64,000 nucleotides of DNA, taken from Eurosta solidaginis. Its lineage: Eukaryota > Arthropoda > Insecta > Diptera > Tephritidae. Each line of letters starts with the position of its first letter. Position 1 is the stretch's first letter. Made by a program: the position numbers and the translations under genes. The DNA is taken from the NCBI RefSeq assembly GCF_040869045.1, contig NC_090323.1, positions 259,288,392 to 259,352,391 on the forward strand. Reading direction: 5' to 3'. The notes under the pieces were generated by a model that searched no databases, had not been told where the DNA came from, and saw only the letters and a list, made by a program, of their open reading frames with translations. Positions 5,488 through 19,086 of the stretch are shown here, piece after piece.

Positions 5488-8245
5488 AGCCTTTACCCGC
5501 GACCCCGTCCGCAAGGAGAAAATGAAATATATGGGCTATTGATCCTGCTTATCAAGTTATCTGTTTAAACATTTTTTCTGTCTAATGCATTTTATTTTTA
5601 TAATTGAGTAAAAAAGAACTAAATGAGCTGATAACCTGATAAGATCCCCAAATGATCCCGAATTTATCCAGAAAAAGCCACGAAATGACCTCGACGCTAT
5701 CGCGGACGCATCCCGGAAACCATCCAAAAATCCCCCGAAAAGGTCTCCAAAAGTTCCCGGAATAGTCCCAAAAAACAACGTCCCAAAAATGAAAACGACA
5801 CGATTCTAGACTTATCCAGAGAACCACGCAGAAATCATCCCTGAAGGGTACCAAAATGATCCCGAATAGAGTATGCGGAAGGGTCCCAAGATGATCCCGA
5901 AATAGTCCGGAAATGACCACGATGGGATCCCGCGCGGATCCAGAAATGATCCCGGTAGGGTCCCAAAACTGTTCCGAAAAATTAACAAAAAAATTCCAAA
6001 ATGACTCCTACGGCATACCGGACGGATCCAGAAATGATCTCGGAAGGGTCCGCAAATGATCCCAAAAAGGTCCCGAAATTACCCTGATGGATCCGGCAAA
6101 CCATCAATAAATGATGAGGGAAGGGTCCACAAATGGTCCCGAAATAATACAGAAAAAGTCACGAAATGATCCCTAAGGGGTTCCCAAATTAACCCCGAAA
6201 TAGTCCCGAAAAAGTCCCGGAATTACCCTGATGGGTTCCCGTACAGATCGCGAAATCCATCCAGAAATGATGCTGGACGGGTCCCCAAACGATTCCGTAT
6301 TAGCCCCGAAAAAGTCCCGAAAACCATCCAGAAATGAAACCGTAATAGTCCAGAAGAAGTCCCGAAATGACCCTGACGGGATATCGAACGAATTCCTAAA
6401 TGACCCTGACGTGATCCTGGACAGATCCCGAAATCCATCCAGACATAATTTAAGGAGGGTTCCAAAAAGATCCCGAAATAGCCCCGGAAAAGTCCAGAAA
6501 TTACCCTGACGGGATCCCGGACGAATGCTGAAAACCATCTTTAAATGATCACGAATCCCGAATTGACCCGACGGGATCCCAGAAATGATGCCGGAAATGT
6601 CCCCATATGATCCCCGAAAATCCCCGAATCCCGTATTAGTCGAGAAAAATTCCCGAAATGACCCCGACGGGATCCCGGACGGATCCCGAAACCCATCTAG
6701 AAATGATGCGGAAAAAATACCCCAAATGATCCTGAAATAGTCCCGAAAAGTTCCGAAATGACGCCGACGTGATCCCAGACGGATCCCGAAAACCATTCAG
6801 AAATTATGCCGGTAGGCACCCCAAAAGATCCCGTATTAGTCGAGAAAAATTCCCGAAATGACCCCGACGGGATCCCGGACGGACCCGAAAACCATCCAGA
6901 AATGATACCGAAATGGACCACAAATGATCCCGAAAAAGTCCCGAAATGGCCCCGATGGGATGCTGAACGGATACCGAAAACCATCCAGAAATGATGCCGG
7001 AAAGGTACTCAAATGATCACCTAATAGTCTCGAAATGACGCTGACGGAATCAAGGACGGATCTCGAAAACCATTCCGAAATGATGCCAAAATGGTCCCCA
7101 AAAGATCCCTTATTAGACGCGAAAAAGTTCCGAAATAACCCCGACGGGATCCCGGACGGATCCCCAAAACCATATAGAAATTATACCGGAAGGTAGCACA
7201 AATGATCCCGAAAAAGTCCTGAAATGCCCCCACCTGATCCCGGACGGATCTCGAAAACCATCCAGAAATGATGCTGGAAGATACCCCAAATGATCCCGAA
7301 ATACTCCCGAAATGACCCCGTCGGGACCCCGGACGGTTTCCGAAAACTATCCAAAAATGATGCCGGAAAAGTCCCCAAATGATCCCCTAATATTCCCGAA
7401 ATAACCCCGTCGGGATCCCGGACGGATCCCCAAAACCATCCAGAAATTATACCGGAAGGTACCACAAATGATCCCGAAAAAGTCCTGAAATGACCCCGAC
7501 CGGATCCCGAAAACCATCCAGAAATGATGCTGGAAGATAACCCGAATGATCCCTAAATAGTCCTGAAATGACCCCGGCCGGATTCCGGACGGATCCCGAA
7601 AACCATCTAGAAATGATGCGGAAAAAATACCCCAAATGATACCGAAATAGTCCCGAAAAGTTTCGAAATGACGCCGACGTGATCCCAGACGGATCCCGAA
7701 AACCATCCAGAAATTATGCCGGTAGGTACTCCAAAAGATCCCGTATTAGTCGAGAAAAATTCCCGAAATGACCCCGACGGGATCCCGGACGGTCCCGAAA
7801 ACCATCCAGAAATGATACCGAAATGGACCACAAATGATCCCGAAAAAGTCTCGAAATCGCCCCGATGGGATCCTGAACGGATACCGAAAACCATCCAGAA
7901 ATGATGCCGGAAAGGTACTCAAAATGATCACCTAATAGTCTCGAAATGACGCTGACGGAATCAAGGACGGATCTCGAAAACCATCCCGAAATGATGCCAA
8001 AATGGTCCCCAAAAGATCCCTTATTAGCCGCGAAAAAGTCCCGAAATAACCTCGACGGGATCCCGGACGGATCCCCAAAACCATATAGAAATTATACCGG
8101 AAGGTAGCACAAATGATCCCGAAAAAGTCCTGAAATGCCCCCACCTGATCCCGGACGGATCCCGAAAACCATCCAGAAATGATGCTGAAAGATACCCCAA
8201 ATGATCCCGAAATACTCCCGAAATGACCCCGTCGAGATCTCCGAC

Positions 8246-8476
8246 TGTAGGGTTCTTATTATTTTTATATTAACTTTGTATTTTAGTTACTTTGAACTTT
8301 TTAATTTTTAAATGTATTATCAATATTTTAAGTTTCAATATTGATTTTCAATTTTCAAAAATATTCATGATTGTAAAAAAATAAAAAAAAAATATACTGA
8401 CGCATATATTTAGGCGTTTTAAAAAATATAATTTAAATTTTTATTATAAAATAAAAACGTAGTTTCAATTACTACA
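8246..8476 (+). repeat. LTR1 5' LTR (231 bp)
   Basis: It begins TGTAGGGTTCTTATTAT and ends TTTCAATTACTACA, with TG...CA termini. It matches 13544-13772 apart from a handful of substitutions and small indels. It is very AT-rich. Confidence 0.95.
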
Positions 8477-8495
8477 TTGGCGATCAGCCAGTCTG
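8477..8495 (+). promoter_or_regulatory. LTR1 probable tRNA primer-binding site
   Basis: The sequence right after the 5' LTR reads TTGGCGATCAGCCAGTC. A TGG start at this place fits pairing with the CCA end of a tRNA. Which tRNA is used cannot be settled here; the known CsRn1 tRNA-Trp site is not an obvious match. Confidence 0.55.
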
Positions 8496-8568
8496 TGAAA
8501 CAAAAACATTGCAGTGCAGTTATTTTTTTGCATTTTAACAAATCACAATAAGATACAAAAAAATACGT

Positions 8569-9415
8569 GAAAAGAACGAACAATACCAATACCAGTGCGA
8601 TATTTGTAAAAAAATTTTTAAAACAAAGTCGGTTTTAAATAGACATAAACTATATAATAGCGGAGAAAAGGCCAATAAATGTGATCTTTGTGATAAGCGA
8701 TTTATATATGCTGCGTACTTAAACCAACATATGCGTACTCATACCGGTGAAAAACAATATAAATGCAAATATTACAAAAAAGTGCACTGAATCCGCATTT
8801 ACGTCTACATCTGGGTGATAATATACACAGATGTAAGTTTTGTCCCTTAGCCTTTCGTTTGGCTTCGTAGCTACGGTTACACTCAACTACACATAAAGAT
8901 GAAGATCCAGAGACGCGTGAACAAAATATGGCAGCTTTAAGGGAAGAAGAGGTTAAATTGAAAGTATATAAAACAAAAATATGATTTATAAATCTTGAAT
9001 ACTATATGAAGTAAATAAAGAGATTGTTTAGCTGAAGTGATAAGATATTGAGTAATTAAAGCCAGAAGATAAGGAGTTGGAAGATTTATTTGACAGTTAC
9101 TTTGATCCAATAAGCTAAATGTAAAATCAACAAATTCCACTGTGAAATTATCAACAGCCAACACAATTTAAAAGTACTCAAGTGGCTTCAAAACATTATC
9201 ATCAAACCAATTTCAAACAATTGCTACCGTACATCATCATCATTCATAGGCAAAACCTTCAAACGTTTAAAAAACAACCAAAGGAATTATTATCCTCGAA
9301 TAACTTAAAGGAGAAGCAGTAGCAACGGGAACAACTGCAAACACAACACCATCAAAAGCCATTGCATAAGTATCAGTTACGGCAACAAACTAAATATTCG
9401 CAAGTATTTGAATAA
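8569..9415 (+). pseudogene. Captured C2H2 zinc-finger gene fragment in the LTR1 leader
   Basis: Between the primer site and gag lies host-like coding sequence. From 8596 it reads CDICKKIFKTKSVLNRHK (finger 1, second His lost), then CDLCDKRFIYAAYLNQHM with RTHTGEK linker (a complete finger), then a third finger that meets TGA at 8788. After a -1 frame change, 8787 onward gives another finger, CKFCPLAFRLAS-stop-LRLHSTTH (TAG at 8868), and then KDEDPETREQNMAALREEE, a tail I recognise from dipteran C2H2 proteins, ending at about 8983. Downstream, 9150-9410 is Gln/His-rich in translation with stops. It resembles a reverse-transcribed 3' part of a host transcription-factor gene. No intact product is possible. 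Confidence 0.82.
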
Positions 9416-9547
9416 AAATATCATCTTTTATGTATGTATACTAAAATATAGATATATTATTATTATTATTATTGTAAACTCTCTTTTCATAGAATTACTA
9501 GTTAATTTTACTGTTTTACTAGTGAACTCTCTTCATTTAATTCAATA

Positions 9548-11545
9548 ATGTTTCGTTCACCACAACATAATACACAAACATCTACACTTTCTAATAAACT
9601 AAATGATTCATTTATAAATACACCAAATGACACTCCTCAACAACAAATTACAAATCCATATACAAATGTTACTCAAAATGAAATTTTGGCAGTTTCAGTA
9701 AAACTACCACAATTTTGGACTAATTGTCCGGAAGCATGGTTTATTCATGCCGAAACACAATTTAGTACTAAAAACATTACACAAGAAAACACTAAATACG
9801 AACACATCATTACAGCACTTCCGCAGGAAGTGATAATAACTATTTTGGATTTTATCCAAAATCCCCCCATTAATAACAAATTTACTGAACTTAAAAAAGT
9901 GTTGATAGAAAGACACTCACTTAGCGAAAATTCGAAACTTGATAAAATTTTAAACGATTCTGAGATGGGTGATCGTAAGCCATCAGAATTTTATCGTTCA
10001 TTAATTATATTAGCCGGATCAAATTTTAGTGAAAATATTTTAAAGAAAATTTGGATGCGTAAACTTCCTAAAAATTTGAGTATGATTTTGGCTAGTTCGA
10101 GTTCTAATAATATTACCGAATTAACAAAATTAGCAGATAATATTTGGGAAGTGATAAACAAAAATGAAGTATTTTCGGTTAATAATTTTTCGGATACAAA
10201 AGCACAAAATTCTGTTGTTGAAAACTTGGTTAAAACCACTTCTTTAATGTGTGAAAATTTTCAGAAACTTTCTCTGGAGTTAGCTGAAATTAAAACAGAA
10301 ATGTATCGGAATCAATCTAGGTCGCGTTCCAATTCTAGGAACTATTTTAGAAATTCTTTTAGGCGTCGTTCTAGCTCGCGTAATAATCCAAATTGGTCGT
10401 GCAGATTTCACTACAAATTTGGAAATTATGCTAGAAGTTGTGAACAACCTTGTTCTTATAACAAAAAACAAAGATTCAGCAAACAAAATTCTTCCGATGT
10501 TGCAGCGACGAACAATGGAAATTTAGAATTTTCGACGCGTCGCTTATTTATTTTTGACAGAGAAAACAAACAAAATTTTTTAATTGATAGTGGAGCAGAA
10601 ATTTCGGTATTACCCGCGTCTAAATTTCCTCATACGAAACGTTCAGACATAATTCTCACTGCAGCTAATGGATCAACAATAGCCACTTACGGGAAAAGGC
10701 TTTTAAACGTAAATTTGGGTTTAAGACGTGAATTTCCCTTTACATTTTTGATTGCAGATATAGCCAAGCCAATAATTGGCGCTGATTTTCTTTGTAAATA
10801 TGGTCTTCTTATAGACATTAAACATAAACGTTTAGTAGATCCATTAACCAATCTCTCAGTTAATACAGTATCTTACTTTTGTGATATTCCATTACCCAAA
10901 TTATTTGTGGTTGAAAATAAATTTACAAAATTATTAAAAGAGTTTCCGTCACTTATTTCAGAGCCAGATTATACTAAACCTGTTAAACATACAACAGTAC
11001 ATCGACTTGTAACAGAAGGTAGTCTTCCATTTTCTAAGCCCAGGCGCTTAGATCCGGTAAAATACAAAGTCGCGAAAACGGAGTTTGATTTCTTAGTTAA
11101 AACAGGCATTTGTCGGCCTTCAAATTCTTCAGTAGCATCACCACTTCACCTTGTACCTAAAAAAGAGTTGAATGATTGGCGTCCATGTGGTGATTTTAGA
11201 AGATTGAATATTGTAACTGTTCCTGATCGTTATCCCTTACCTCACATTCAAGATTTTAATATGAACCTTCATAATAAAAATATATTTTCAAAATTAGATT
11301 TAGTTAGGGCATATCACCAAATTCCTATGGCTGAAGAAGATATTTACAAAACTGCTATTACAACTCTTTTCGGTATGTTTGAATTCATGAGAATGCCTTT
11401 CGGACTTAGAAATTCTGCACAAACCTTTCAATGATTCATAAATGAGGTAGTAGGTGACTTAGATTTTGTATATGCTTACATCGACGACTTACTTATTGCA
11501 AGTACAGACGAAGAACAACATTTAAAAGATTTACGTATCCTTTTT
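9548..11545 (+). pseudogene. LTR1 gag-protease-reverse transcriptase, interrupted
   Basis: Starts at ATG 9548 and is open to TGA at 11432. The gag part (residues about 1-320) ends with an Arg/Ser-rich stretch and a C-X2-H-X9-C-X3-C knuckle at about residues 284-301. The aspartic protease motif [12 protein letters not shown] is at about residue 345. The reverse transcriptase has [24 protein letters not shown] and [12 protein letters not shown]. The TGA stands where relatives usually have Arg, which suggests a CpG change. The same frame then continues through YAYIDDLLIAS (catalytic YIDD, near 11476-11508) until about 11545, where the frame shifts. Gag, protease and the start of RT are intact; RT is not. 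Confidence 0.9.
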
Positions 11546-13532
11546 ATCCGGTTTAAACATTAAACCAAGTACTTGTACTTTTGGTGTACCTAGTATCGAT
11601 TTTTTAGGACATAACATTTCTGGAAGAGGTATTCGACCTTCCGATGAAAAGGTATCAGCTATTCGCAATTTCGAACGTCCAAAATCAGTTAAGCAGGCAC
11701 AGAAATTTATTGGTATGGTAAATTATTATCATAGATACATTCCAAAACTAGCAGAATTTACAAACAAAATTTATGATCTAATTAACAAAGTAAATAAGAA
11801 ACGTGACAAAACTTTGGTATGGGATGAGAATTCGAATGAAGCTTTTGAATGCATTAAAGATAAATTTGCATCTACGATATTGTTAAATCATTTTAACAAA
11901 GATGCTAAATTATCTTTAACTGTAGATGCATCTAACACAGCGATTGGGGGCGTTATACAACAAAATTACAATAATAAAATTGAGCCCATTGCATTCTTTT
12001 CTAAAAAATTTTCTCCAACTGAAATTAAGTATAGTGCTTTTGATAGGGAATTATTGGCGATTTATTTAAATATAAAACATTTTAGATATCTTTTGGAAGG
12101 ACGACAATTTACAGTTTATACGGACCATAAACCTTTGACTACTGCTTTAAATTCAAAAACAGAACGAAGTCCTAGACAAACGAAACACTTGGAATTTATA
12201 GCACAATTTACTGATGACATACAACACATTAAAGGAGAATCCAATGTTGTAGCAGATACGCTATCTAGAGCTTTTGAGGTTAATGCAATATATAATACAG
12301 AACTGAATTTTAAAATTTTACAAACTGAACAACAAAAAGATGATGACTTAAATCAACTTGTATCTGATTCTCAATATCTAAATTTAAAGTTAATTAATAT
12401 TCCGATTTTAAATTTTAATATTTGGTGTGAAATTTCAGGAGAAACTCCTAGGCCATTTGTACCGAGTAATTTGCGAAAGACAGTATTTGATATTTTACAT
12501 GGAATAGCACATCCGGGTACAAGAGCTACACGACGGCTCATAGTTAAAAAATATTATTGGCCTAATATGAATAAGGATATTAATATTTGGTCAAAAGAGT
12601 GTCTTAATTGTCAAAAGTCTAAGGTTTATCGTCATACAAAATCCCCTGTTGTCAAAATTCAAATTCCCAAGAATAGATTTGAACACATCCATTTAGATAT
12701 AGTTGGACCATTACCTATTTCAAAAGGACATCGCTATATTTTAACGATTATTGAAAGATTTACCCGCTGGCCTGAGGCATATGCATTAAAAGACATTTCA
12801 GCAACTACAATTGCAAATAAGTTTTTTAGAGAATATATTTCTCGGTTTGGAGTTCCGTTAAAGATAACAACTGATCAAGGTAGCCAATTTACATCGAAAT
12901 TGTTTTCAGAGTTAACTAAATTACTTGGTAGTCACCAAATTACATCATCCGCATATCACCCTCAAGGAAATGGTATGGTTGAAAGGTTTCATAGACAATT
13001 AAAGACTACTATAATAGCTAGAGAGGACACAAATAATTGGTATGACGAGTTACCTGTCATATTACTTGGTTTGCGATCTATTTACAAAGAAGATATTTCG
13101 GCTACACCAGCGGAAATGGTTTTCGATCAGAATTTACGTTTGCCAGGGGAACTTGTTGTGCCATCAGCTAAAAATTTCTCATCAACTGAAGTTTTAAGTA
13201 ATTTACGTGAACATTTTCGAAATGTTAGATCAAATTTAAGTCATCATAAAGATGCTGATACTGGAATTTATGTTCCAAAAGATCTTCAAACTTGTAAATT
13301 TGCATTCGTTCGAGTCATTAATAAACATTCATTACAACAACCATATGAAGGACCTTACAAAATTGTGGAAAAAGACCAAAAATGTTTTAAACTTGAAATA
13401 GATAATAATATTAAAACGATTCCTATTGATAGATTAAAACCTGCAATAATTGAGACAACAGACACAAACAACACAAAGAATTTACATAAAAAGAGAGTTA
13501 CATTCAATTTGTTTAATGATAAATTTTCTTGA
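11544..13532 (+). pseudogene. LTR1 distal RT, RNase H and integrase
   Basis: Open in a frame one base ahead of gag from about 11544 to TGA at 13532. It holds the end of the RT (PSIDFLGHNISGRGIRPS and the NYYHRYIPK block), the RNase H (LTVDASNTAIGG, FDRELLAIYLNIKHFRYLLEG, TDHKPLT) and the integrase. The integrase shows the HHCC zinc motif (HGIAHPGTRA to CLNCQKSK) and a DDE core: HLDIVGPLP, TTDQGSQF, GMVERFHRQL. It ends 11 bases before the right LTR, so there is no env gene. The frame change and a small probable deletion at about 11540 separate it from the first part of pol. This part is otherwise free of stops. Confidence 0.9.
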
Positions 13533-13543
13533 AGGGGGAGTAA
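13531..13543 (+). promoter_or_regulatory. LTR1 polypurine tract
   Basis: GAAGGGGGAGTAA lies directly before the right LTR, the usual site of plus-strand priming. Confidence 0.8.
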
Positions 13544-13772
13544 TGTAGGGTTCTTATTATCTTTATTTAACTTTGTATTTTAGTTACTTTGAACTTTTTA
13601 ATTTTTAAATGTATTATTAATATATTAAGTTTCAATATTGATTTTCAATTTTCAAAAATATTCATGATTGTAAAAAAATAAAAAAATATATATTGACGCA
13701 TACATTTAGGCGTTTTAAAAAATATAATTTAAATTTTTATTATAAAATAAAAACGTAGTTTCAATTACTACA
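13544..13772 (+). repeat. LTR1 3' LTR (229 bp)
   Basis: It starts TGTAGGGTTCTTATTATC and ends TTTCAATTACTACA, followed by the CCGAC target duplication and then B1 satellite. Differences from the left LTR include a shorter A-run and several substitutions. Confidence 0.95.
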
Positions 13773-15400
13773 CCGACGGATCCCGGAAACTATGCAGAAA
13801 TGATGCCGCAAAAGTCTTTAAATGATCCCCTAATTGTCCCGAAATTACCCTGACGGGATCCCGGACGGATAGCGAAATCCATCCAGAAATGATGCCGAAA
13901 GGGTCCCCAAATGATCCCGTATTAGTCGAGAAAAAGTCCCGAAATGACCCCGACGGTATCTCGGACGAACCCCGGAAACTATGTAGAAATGATCCCGAAA
14001 TGGCCCCGTCGAGATCCCCGACGGATCCCGGAAACTATGCAGAAATGATGCCGGAAAGGTCTTCAAATGATCCCCTAATAGTCCCGAAATGATCCCGAAC
14101 GGATCCCGAAAACCAGCCAGAAATGATGCCGGAAGGGACCCCAAATGATCCCGAAAAAGTCGCGAATTAACCCCGACGGGATCCCGGACGGATCCCGAAA
14201 ACCATCCAGAAATAATGGCGGAAGGGACCTAAAATGACCCCGAAAAAGTTCCGTAATGATCCCGGAAACCATCAAGAATTTATCTCTCAAAGGTACGCAA
14301 ATCATCCCGAAAATACCCCGACTGGATGCCGAACGGATCCCGAAACCCATCCAGAAATGTTGCCGGAAAGGTCCCTAAATGTTCGCGAAAAAGTCCCGAA
14401 ATGATCCTGGAATAGTCCCGAAAATATCCCAAAATAACCCCGACGGGATCCCGGACGGATCCCAAAAACTATACAGAAATGATACCGGAAGGGTCCCAAA
14501 ATTATACCGAAATAGTACCGAAAAAGTCCCGAAATGACCCCGGCGGGATCCCGGACGCATCCCGAAAACCAATCCAAAAATGATCCCGGAAGGGTCTCGA
14601 TATGACCGCAACGGGATTACAAATAAGGCGAAGCTAATTGTAGAACCATTTTAATAAGGCAGCAGGCGCGTTGGAGCGAATGAAGAGTTACAAATAAACA
14701 TACAGGTAAAGCTAATAAAAGCGTGCTAATAAAAACAATTGATGGAGGGCGGATGGCGGGAGGAGAAGTACCGCTGCTCGTTTTTCCAAAATTGTTTAGA
14801 TCTCTATATGTGTGTGTCAGATACCAAAAACTATTGATTTAGGAGAAAATTTATATTGAGTTATAACAATTTATAGATTTTACACCAGAGGGGTGGAAAG
14901 GGAGGGAGGTTGAGGGCGGTGGGGAGCGGAGGGTGTCACTGCTCACTTTGTAAGCCCTCGACTTATTTGACCCATTGAGTCTGTGATATTGGTGAAGGCC
15001 AGTATACGTAAAGTTATTATGTGTAAAAATTATTAAAAAGCAATTGCTCGAAGGGGTCGTGGGACCCCGACCCCAATTTCCATGTTCGAAAAAAATTTCG
15101 CTAGTAGACTACTGTCTGTGTCCCAAATTTCATCAAAATCCGTGTAGCCGTTCTGGCGTGATTCAGTCGCAAAGACTAAAAAATATAATAATTAAATTAT
15201 AACAGTTCGTGTGGGGAGGGGACCTCCCCCCTTTTGAAAAATATATAGCTAGTAGATCCTTCTGGACCATTGGCTATATGTGTGCCAACTTTCATCCAAA
15301 TCCGTCCAGCCGTTCTTGCGTGATTGACTCACAAAGACAAACGTCTGGACAAACATCCAAACATCTAAACATCCAAACTTTGCCATTTATAATATACTAG

Positions 15401-18400
15401 CCTTTACCCGCGGCCCCGTCCGCAAGGAAAATTTTAAATATATGGGCTATTCGCGTTAGCCTGCTTATTATCTGTTTAAAATTTTGTTTTCTGTCTAATG
15501 CATTTTATTTTTGTAATTGAGTAAAAAAAGAACTAAATGAGCTGATAACCTGATAGGATCCCAAATGATCCCGAAATTATCCAGAAAAAGCTACGAAATG
15601 ACCCCAACGCTATCGCGGACGGATCCCAAAAACCATCCAGAAATGCCCCGAAAGGGTCTCCAAAAGTTCCCCGAATAGTCCCAAATCCCGAACGGATCCC
15701 GACAACTATCCAGAAATGATACCGAAAGGGCCCGCAAATGATCCCGTATTAGTCGAGAAAAAGTCCCGAAATGACCCCGACGGGATGCCGGACGAATCCC
15801 AAAAACCATCCAGAAATGATGTCGGAAGGGACCCCAATGATCCCGAAAAAGTCCCGCAATTATTCCGACGGGAATCTGAACGGGTACCGAAAACCATCCA
15901 GAAGTGATGCCGGAACGGTCCTCAAATGCTCACCTAATAGTCCCAAAATGACCCTGAGGGCATCCCGGACAAATCCCGAAATCCATCCAGAAATGATCTT
16001 GGTAAGGTCCCAAAATGATCCCGAAATAGTCTCGGAAAAGTCCAGAAATTACCCTGACGGGTTCCCGGACGAATCCTGAAAGCCATCCATAAATGATCCC
16101 GAAAAAGCCCCGAAATGACCCTGACGGGATCCCGAAAGGATTCCAAAAACTATCCAGAAATGATGCCGGAAAGGTCCTCAAATGATCCCCTAATAGTTCC
16201 GAAATGACCGTGACGGGATCCCGAACGGATCCCGACAACTATCCAGAAATTATGCCGAAAGGGTCCGCAAATGATCCCGTATTAGTCGAGAAAAAGTCCC
16301 GAAATGACCCCGACGGGATCCCGGACGAATCCCGAAAACCATCCAGAAATGATGCCGGTAGGTATCCCAAATGATCCCGAAATAATCCCGAAATGACCTC
16401 GTCGGCATCCCGGACGGATACCGAAAATTATCCAGAAATGATGCCGGAAAGGTCCACAAATGATCCCCTAATAGTCCCGAAATTACCCTGATGGGATCCT
16501 GGACGGATCCCGCAAACCATCCAGAAATGATGCCGGAAGAGCCCCCAAATGATCCCGAAAAAGTCCCCAAATGACCCCGACGATATCCCGGACGGATCCC
16601 GAAAACCATCCAGAAATGATGCCGGAAGAGCCCCCAAATTATCCCGAAAAAGTCCCCAAACGACCCCGACGAGATCCCGCACGGATCCCGAAAACCATCC
16701 AGAAATGATCCCGAAAAAGTCCCCAAATGACCCCGACATACTCCAGAAAAGGTTCCGAAATGGCTCCGAGGGAATCAACGACGGATCGCGAAAACCATAC
16801 AGAAATGATTCCGGAAGGATCTCAAAATGATCCCGAAATAGTCCGGAAATGACCCAGATGGGATCCCGCACAGATCCAGAAATGATCCCGGAAGGGTCCA
16901 AAAACTATCCCGGAAAAGTAACAAAAAATCCCGAAATGGCTCCTATGGCATCCCGGACGGATCCAGAAATGATCTCGGAAGGGTCCCCAAATGATCCCAA
17001 AATGGTCCCGAAATGACCCTGATGGATCCGGCAAACCATCAAGAAATTATGCCGGAAGGGTCCCCAAATGATCCCGAAATAAAACAGAAAAAGTCACGAA
17101 ACGACCCCTAGAGGATCCCCAAATGATCCCGTATTAGCCCCGAAAAAGTCCCAAAATGACCCTGACGGGATCCCGAAAGGATTCCGAAAACAATACAGAA
17201 ATGATGCCGGAAAGGTCCTCAAATGATCCCTTAATAGTCCCGAAATGACCGTGACGGGATCCCGACAACTATCCAGAAATGATGCCGAAAGGGTCCGCAA
17301 ATGATCCCGTATTAGTCGAAAAAAAGTCCCGAAAGGACCACGACGGGATCCCGGACGAATCCCAAAAACCATCCAGAAATGATACCGGTAGGTATCCCAA
17401 ATTATCCCGAAATAGTCCCGAAATTACCTCGTCGGCATCCCGGACGGATCCCGAAAATTATCCAGAAATGTTGCCGGAAAGGTTCCCAAATGATCCCCTA
17501 ATAGTCCCGAAATTACCCTAATGGGATCCCGGACGGATCCCGAAAACCATCCAGAAATGATGCCGAAAGGGTTCCCAAATGATCCCGTATTAGCCGCGAA
17601 AAAGTCCCGAAATGACCCCGACGGGGTCCCGGACGTATCCCGAAAACCATCCAGAAATGATGCCGAAAGGGTTCCCAAATGATCCCGTATTAGTCGCGAA
17701 AAAGTCCCGAAATGACCCCGACGGGATCCCGGACGGATCCCGAAAACCATCCAGAAATGATGCCGGATGAGCCCCAAAATGATCACGAAAAAGCCCCCGT
17801 ATGACCCCGACGAGATTCCGGACGGATCCCGAAAACCATCCAGAAATGATGCCGGAAGAGCCCCCAAATGATCCCGAAAAAGTCCCCAAATGACCCCGAC
17901 GATATCCCGGACGGATCCCGAAAACCATCCAGAAATGATGCCGGAAGAGCCCCCAAATGATCCCGAAAAAGTCCCGAAATGACCCCGACGGGATCCCGGA
18001 CGGATCCCGAAAACCATCCAGAAATGATGCCGGAAGGGTCCCCAAATGATCGCGAGATAGTCCCGAAATGATTCCGGAATAGTCCCGAAAATGTTCCAAA
18101 ATAACCCCGACGGGATCCCGGACGGATCCCGTAAACTATACAGAAATGATCCCGGAAGGGTCCCAAAATGATCCCGAAATAGTCCCGAAAAAGTCCCGAA
18201 ATTACCCCGGCGTAATCCCGGACCGATCCCGAAAACCATCCAGAAATGATCTCGGAAGGGTCTTGATATGACCCTTACGGGATTACAAATAAGGTGAAGC
18301 TAATTATAAAACCATGTTAATAAGGCAGCAGGCGCATTGGAGCGAATAAAAAGTTAGATAGAAACATACAGGTAAAGCTAATAAAAGCGTGCTAATAAAA

Positions 18401-19086
18401 ACAATTGATGGAGGGCGGATGGCGGGAGTAGAGGAGAGGACCACTGATCGTTCCTCCAAAATTGTCTAGATCTCGTTCTGTATGTACCAGATACCAAAAA
18501 CTATTGATTTAGGAGAAAATTTAGATTGAGTTATAACAATTTATGGATTTTACACCAGAGGGGGGAGATAAAGGGGGGCGGGCGGAGGGTGTCACTGCTT
18601 ACTTTGTAAGCCCTCGACTTATTTGACCCCTTGAATCTGTGATATTGGTGAAGGCCAGTATACGTAAAGTTATAATGTGTAAAAATTATGAAAAATAATT
18701 TCTCGAAGGGGGGACCCCCACCCCTCTTTCCATGTTCGAAAAAAATTTCGCTAGTAGACTACTGTCTGTGTCCCACATTTCATCAAAATCCGTGTAGCCA
18801 TTCTGGCGTGATTCAGTCGCAAAGACGAAAAAATATAATAATTAAATTATAACTGTTCCTAGGGGGCGGGGACCACGCCGCTTTTGAAAAATATATAGCT
18901 AGTAGATCCTTCTAGACTATTGGCTATATGTGTGCAAAATTTCATCCAAATCGGTCCAGCCGTTCTTGCGTTATTGAGTCACAAAGACAAACGTCTGGAC
19001 AAACATCCAAACATCCAAACATCTAAACATCCAAACATCCAAACATCCAAACTTTGCCATTTATAATATATATTAGATTAGACTAG
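15401..19086 (+). repeat. Element B copy 2 (B2)
   Basis: Head 15401-15555, 89-bp satellite about 15555-18285 (about 30 units), tail 18285-19086. The tail begins GGGATTACAAATAAGGTGAA and carries two diverged copies of a module of about 165 bp, then the ACATCCAA microsatellite at about 19005-19055. In the satellite, 17424-18239 is open for 271 codons on the minus strand, the longest such frame here. It is a by-product of the repeat and not a gene. Confidence 0.85.

Follow-up and report, generated by a model that had tools for sequence, protein, structure and literature searches.

Our results suggest that the leader of a Ty3/Gypsy LTR retrotransposon in the 1.9-Gb genome of Eurosta solidaginis is, very probably, composed of pieces of several host mRNAs that were acquired through reverse transcription. 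In this leader an intron-free two-exon module of a ZAD-C2H2 zinc-finger gene sits inside a piece of exuperantia, which in turn is fused to one from a CCDC85-family gene. All the captured pieces are in sense orientation and have increased in copy number together with the element. The leader region appears to pick up host messages repeatedly. The element lies in a 64,000-nt stretch of DNA, C5:259288392-259352391, which we refer to as the window and whose numbering is used below; all features of the element are on the forward strand.

Architecture and affiliation of the element

The element spans 8246-13772 of the window. Its 5′ LTR (TG...CA, 8246-8476, 231 nt) is repeated as the 3′ LTR at 13544-13772 (229 nt), with 6 substitutions and 2 one-base indels between the two copies; the whole is flanked by the target-site duplication CCGAC, with the left copy at 8241-8245 and the right copy at 13773-13777. 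The primer-site region and the beginning of the leader (8477-8536), for which no host source was identified in the sequence, precede the captured pieces, and the end of the leader (9355-9547) is, on comparison of leaders, partly common to other subfamilies. A gag-protease-reverse transcriptase ORF with a CHCC motif and DSGA follows at 9548-11434, and an RNase H-integrase ORF at 11715-13532. The reverse transcriptase is cut short in the window copy, where a single frame covers positions 1-131 of 205 of the Pfam RVT_1 profile before the ORF ends. A scan of viral contigs with the gag ORF gave no match.

The primer site of CsRn1-lineage elements is the complement of tRNA-Trp. The bases after the 5′ LTR of the window element, TTGGCGATCAGCCAGTC, do not look complementary to the end of tRNA-Trp, and its primer site, TGGCGATCAGCC, may in this respect be unlike that of the lineage. 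The CHCC motif of the gag ORF and the GPY motif in the 3′ part of the integrase (YEGPYKIVEK, in the 11715-13532 ORF) are both features of the CsRn1 lineage of Ty3/Gypsy according to one study (PMC3630058), and are common to the window element and to fly members of the lineage such as CsRn1_Cv1 of Calliphora vicina. The window element differs from these in its long host-derived leader and in its target duplication of 5 bp where 4 are typical, and because of this last difference we call it CsRn1-like rather than CsRn1. The same source reports that CsRn1_Cv1 also departs from the 4-bp duplication, with 6 bp (PMC3630058).

The finger segment and its parent gene family

The stretch 8566-8787, between the 5′ LTR and the gag ORF, encodes two C2H2 fingers connected by a TGEK linker (Pfam zf-H2C2_2, 6.9e-13; zf-C2H2, 5.9e-11), as an earlier, sequence-only reading had noticed, and it matches 287 distinct PDB sequences (E up to 1). 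Past 8787 the homology shifts to a second frame that holds more finger sequence, a TAG at 8868-8870 and then the tail KDEDPETREQNMAALREEE. A protein search with the second finger part gave, from 126 candidates, 30 matches with E no higher than 0.001. Every one of them is from Eurosta, and since this part and the tail are 63-87% identical to these zinc-finger proteins, the finger sequence is not a chance occurrence. A ZAD domain (PF07776) is present in 23 of the 30 matched proteins and absent from the captured piece itself, and those of the proteins that were read consist of repeated modules ending in or near ...HKDEDPETRERNMAALREEEAKLKV. In a genome search with one of them (P0002), for which the best 62 of 2109 candidates were scored, 46 places have a match that starts at or before residue 37 of the protein, and 37 of these lie in C4:17.4-21.9 Mb, the site of a large cluster of ZAD zinc-finger genes. 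By homology, the finger sequence at 8553-8971 is one two-exon module of this large ZAD-C2H2 gene family, the parent being assigned at the level of the family, from which, much larger as it is, seven finger modules were read. A 252-aa annotated Eurosta protein (P0031) also has a piece of RVT_1 fused to a finger module of the family, and is either a gene-model artefact or another fusion of retroelement and fingers.

All seven host modules have GTAAGT...ATAG between their two exons. The intron measures 63-83 nt in six of them and 246 nt in L064, where the inter-exon stretch includes a further exon-like copy; another of the seven, L074, contains a stop and is possibly a pseudogene. In the element copies the two exons are joined and the host intron sequence is absent. 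In the window, exon 1 (8553-8699) begins at the base right after the host splice acceptor (AG/ATACAAA) and ends where the host donor would come next, and exon 2 (8700-8971) continues directly from it, with a 16-nt deletion near 8776 and the TAG already mentioned. Because the seven host modules carry an intron exactly where the element has none, what was captured was a spliced mRNA. This absence of the parent intron, the mark of RNA-mediated capture, applies to the finger module only, which is the one captured piece that spans an intron. The translated search for a parent gene that had been suggested in the sequence-only reading thus led to a cellular family with introns that the element lacks. 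That reading had described an intronless 3′ part of a host gene; the capture reading holds, all seven host modules having an intron that the element lacks, and the description as a 3′ part gives way to that of a two-exon module from a gene made of repeated modules.

Exuperantia and CCDC85 pieces around the fingers

The Gln/His-rich sequence behind the fingers had been taken as part of the same gene, so that 8569-9415 as a whole would be a finger-gene piece. Instead, the captured finger part covers about 8553-8971, and the remainder, to about 9354, comes from exuperantia (8980-9109, the SAM_Exu part) and from a CCDC85-family gene (9113-9354, the Gln/His-rich part). A Gln/His tail belonging to the finger gene was rejected on comparison with related leaders: the leader of L065 (on C6) matches SAM_Exu, and the CCDC85-family protein P0032 (PF10226, 4.9e-51) matches the remainder. 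L065 and other leaders that were read contain exuperantia and CCDC85 without fingers. Matches to SAM_Exu (PF18609) were obtained with L066 (E 5.2e-12) and with two open pieces of L065 (6.7e-9 and 1.5e-7), and L066 also matches a PDB chain of exuperantia (2.3e-10). The host exuperantia exon (L067, C3:221799600-221802600) is 88.7% identical to the L065 leader over 450 nt and 78% identical to window 8972-9109. The single host locus of P0032 lies on C3, near 264.69-264.70 Mb, and its exon (L076, C3:264698083-264699414) is 86.3% identical to L065 over 241 nt and 81.8% identical to the window piece. The joint between exuperantia and CCDC85 is common to L065, L070, L071 and the window. On the upstream side of the fingers, a 5′ stub of exuperantia remains at 8537-8552, with near-identical bases in the L065 leader and the host exon; it is 16 nt long in the window copy and longer in several older copies.

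The fingers take the place of the exuperantia segment between NK/IPSV and GYDLQ, and a related leader has exuperantia uninterrupted at this point. This matters for the converse proposal, in which the fingers originated in the element and the host genes descend from it. We regard it as extremely improbable, the host genes having a ZAD domain, several modules and introns. Among the matches listed, 20 further places have an exuperantia/CCDC85 match with no finger match within 3 kb; the fingers were found to be absent in the five of these that were read (L065, L066/L068, L069, L070 and L071), and the other 15 are assumed to be element copies. In L068, integrase-like ORFs lie upstream of the exuperantia-like piece, at 38-1187 in reverse-complement coordinates, and judged by eye are probably another element in a nested insertion.

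The order of events would then be that exuperantia and CCDC85 were captured first and the fingers later. Host mRNAs would have been packaged in the particles of the element, and its reverse transcriptase may have switched template at short matches, through AGATAC into the finger mRNA and through TAT back to exuperantia; these matches at the entry and exit joints are 3-6 nt long. Template switching accounts for exons that are already spliced, for their sense orientation and for joints that lie inside the leader. The germ-line role of exuperantia fits capture in the germ line. The region from primer site to gag would tolerate such changes, as it does not code for any element protein. The exuperantia and CCDC85 pieces, like the spectrin piece described below, each fall within one host exon, and their RNA origin rests on their setting; the same is true of the P0033 coding piece described below, as this comes from a single-exon ORF.

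Reverse transcription without any template switching has also to be considered. If the element had been in or beside host genes, spliced read-through transcripts could have been reverse transcribed, as in classical transduction, and the finger piece does start exactly at the host splice acceptor, with its other end at a host exon end or no more than about 12 nt away from one. However, the fingers are inside the exuperantia piece, which is itself inside the leader, so that both of their joints are internal, and the joint from exuperantia to CCDC85 lies inside the open frame of the host exuperantia exon, not at the exon end. The host genes are also far apart, with the finger cluster on C4, exuperantia and CCDC85 43 Mb from each other on C3, and P0033 on C1. 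We consider read-through distinctly unlikely for these reasons, and favor template switching.

Copies of the finger-bearing element

The finger segment is present in at least 35 places in the genome, with exuperantia/CCDC85 matches near all 35; the best 40 of 335 candidates were scored in this search, and the counts of places are lower bounds. Thirty finger loci, the window copy included, were cut for comparison, of which 29 have an LTR match, 27 a gag match and all 30 the exuperantia and CCDC85 pieces. As expected of a capture, the segment is accompanied by LTR and gag in several copies. The search for further copies, another check that had been put forward, therefore leaves next to no chance that zinc-finger sequence was inserted late and at this locus alone, a proposal that we take as refuted by the occurrence in many places together with LTR and gag. 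We found no evidence in favor of either late insertion or native fingers.

An unrooted tree separates 29 element rows from the seven host modules with support of 100/99, the bootstrap not being fully settled; it omits L001, which is the same as the window, and L027, which is interrupted, and several of its rows are partial. The element rows are 87.6-91.4% identical to the nearest host module read (L061). The frameshift and the stop seen earlier in the window copy are not peculiar to it: the 16-nt deletion (15 nt in L017) is present in 24 of the 29 element rows and TAG at codon 111 in 22. Since both are common to most rows, the element kept multiplying after the finger frame was lost.

Coding potential of the captured fingers

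A different use of the fingers, as a protein that serves the element, for example a DNA-binding or nuclear-targeting accessory, could draw on the five of 29 rows that lack the 16-nt frameshift, one of which is free of stops in the finger frame. The other four have a stop within it, however, and translation would lack an upstream start. In the window there is no ATG in the finger frame from 8477 to 8566 and there is a TAA at 8536, the first ATG of the frame being internal, at 8731; the five deletion-free rows have no ATG within 33 codons upstream, and four of the five have an upstream stop in frame. The ratio pN/pS was 0.60 (0.35-1.11) for the five rows without the deletion, 0.55 (0.30-1.12) for ten rows with it, 0.79 (0.52-1.28) for five host modules and 0.82 (0.60-1.15) between the host and the five deletion-free rows. 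A neutral star simulation of five sequences from the host exon gave 0.62 (0.39-1.03). In this comparison, a test of low power, the ratio of the deletion-free rows resembles the neutral simulation, and there is no support for protein-level selection on the fingers. We consider an accessory protein very unlikely. Because the upstream ATG is absent, the frameshift is shared and pN/pS is like that of the neutral simulation, the fingers would be a non-coding passenger in the untranslated leader, that is, in the genomic RNA.

Leaders of related subfamilies

A genome search with gag listed the best 40 of 1119 candidates, and 30 were cut as loci. The finger-exuperantia-CCDC85 leader is found in 13 of these, window included, and the commonest other type, that of L046, in 10; the latter is about 950 nt long and AT-rich. 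A spectrin-type leader (L033, L057 and L058) and an L053-type leader occur in three loci each, and one locus, L044, falls outside the named types. A host source was traced for the finger, spectrin and L053 types, a set that does not include the L046 type (10/30).

In the spectrin type, a piece of a spectrin-repeat gene is 93.0% identical to the host over 186 nt in L057 and 81.7% in L033, and L058 shares the flanks without the 186-nt core. The host exon matched by L057 has an open frame of 2489 aa in which a spectrin repeat adjoins the matched part. The L053 leader corresponds to the last 51 codons of the host gene for P0033, its stop and about 560 nt of 3′ flank, which we infer to be its 3′UTR, with 80.9% identity over 744 nt. 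The coding end of P0033 matches 20 places besides the host gene, of which three were read and the others are assumed to be element copies. UTP20 was dropped as a source of the L053 type, its Pfam match (E 0.0015) being below the cut-off and P0033 matching 744 nt of DNA. PDB searches with the L057 and L053 leader pieces gave nothing useful.

As judged from these sequence matches, five unrelated host genes are represented at the same leader position of one element family. Leaders have also been exchanged between gag lineages: L033, with a gag 99.8% like that of the window, has a spectrin-type leader, and L007 and L016 have finger leaders with gags 85% like that of the window.

The leader as a probable site of capture

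That LTR elements of plants, and retroviruses, capture host genes is well established. The closest precedent for the window element is maize Bs1, an LTR retrotransposon that holds pieces of three unrelated host genes (PMC13317346, PMC5408686) and so resembles the window element in having several such genes in one LTR element. In contrast to Bs1, the window element belongs to the Ty3/Gypsy elements of animals, has gag-pol ORFs and carries its pieces in the leader before gag. At least five host genes are involved across several subfamilies, and one of the captures is nested in another. In retroviral oncogene transduction, too, a reverse-transcribing element takes up pieces of spliced host mRNA; the captured finger piece, by contrast, shows no sign of a protein function. 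The cases of LTR-mediated retroposition in metazoans collected by Tan et al. 2016 are reportedly mostly single retrocopies, whereas the captured pieces described here are standing parts of multiplying element families. In those cases host mRNA enters element cDNA by switching at short matches, as it would have done here, and a published account describes how the template is switched, at such matches, between the RNA of the element and mRNA packaged with it (PMC5408686). A review mentions occasional captured ORFs of LTR elements downstream of pol (PMC6431247). In the literature searched, which covered few subscription papers, we found no report of an animal Gypsy family that had made serial captures in front of gag. 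Five host genes, a nested capture and leader exchange constitute a natural series for the order, the joints and the fate of captures, and with such a series the rate at which reverse transcriptase switches to host mRNA in the insect germ line becomes testable.

One could go further and propose that the stretch from primer site to gag is a standing capture site, the leader being renewed by host mRNA pieces and its turnover favored, for instance because turnover removes sequence recognized by host small RNAs or in packaging competition. Leader renewal would then have happened many times, the finger capture being one instance. We think this fairly unlikely. In a narrower form, RNA from the captured finger piece may act against the large ZAD finger cluster. 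According to one study, dipteran ZAD finger proteins do not seem to be directed specifically at transposons (PMC10547256), and a simple arms race is less likely for that reason.

Surroundings of the element

On both sides of the element, at about 5550-8245 and 13773-18300 of the window, extends a large array of GATCCCGGACGG-type repeats related to one another, with spacings of, for example, 78, 89 and 100 nt. Window positions 14566-15360 and 18232-19010, about 3.65 kb apart, are piecewise 89-93% identical and are apparently a local duplication.
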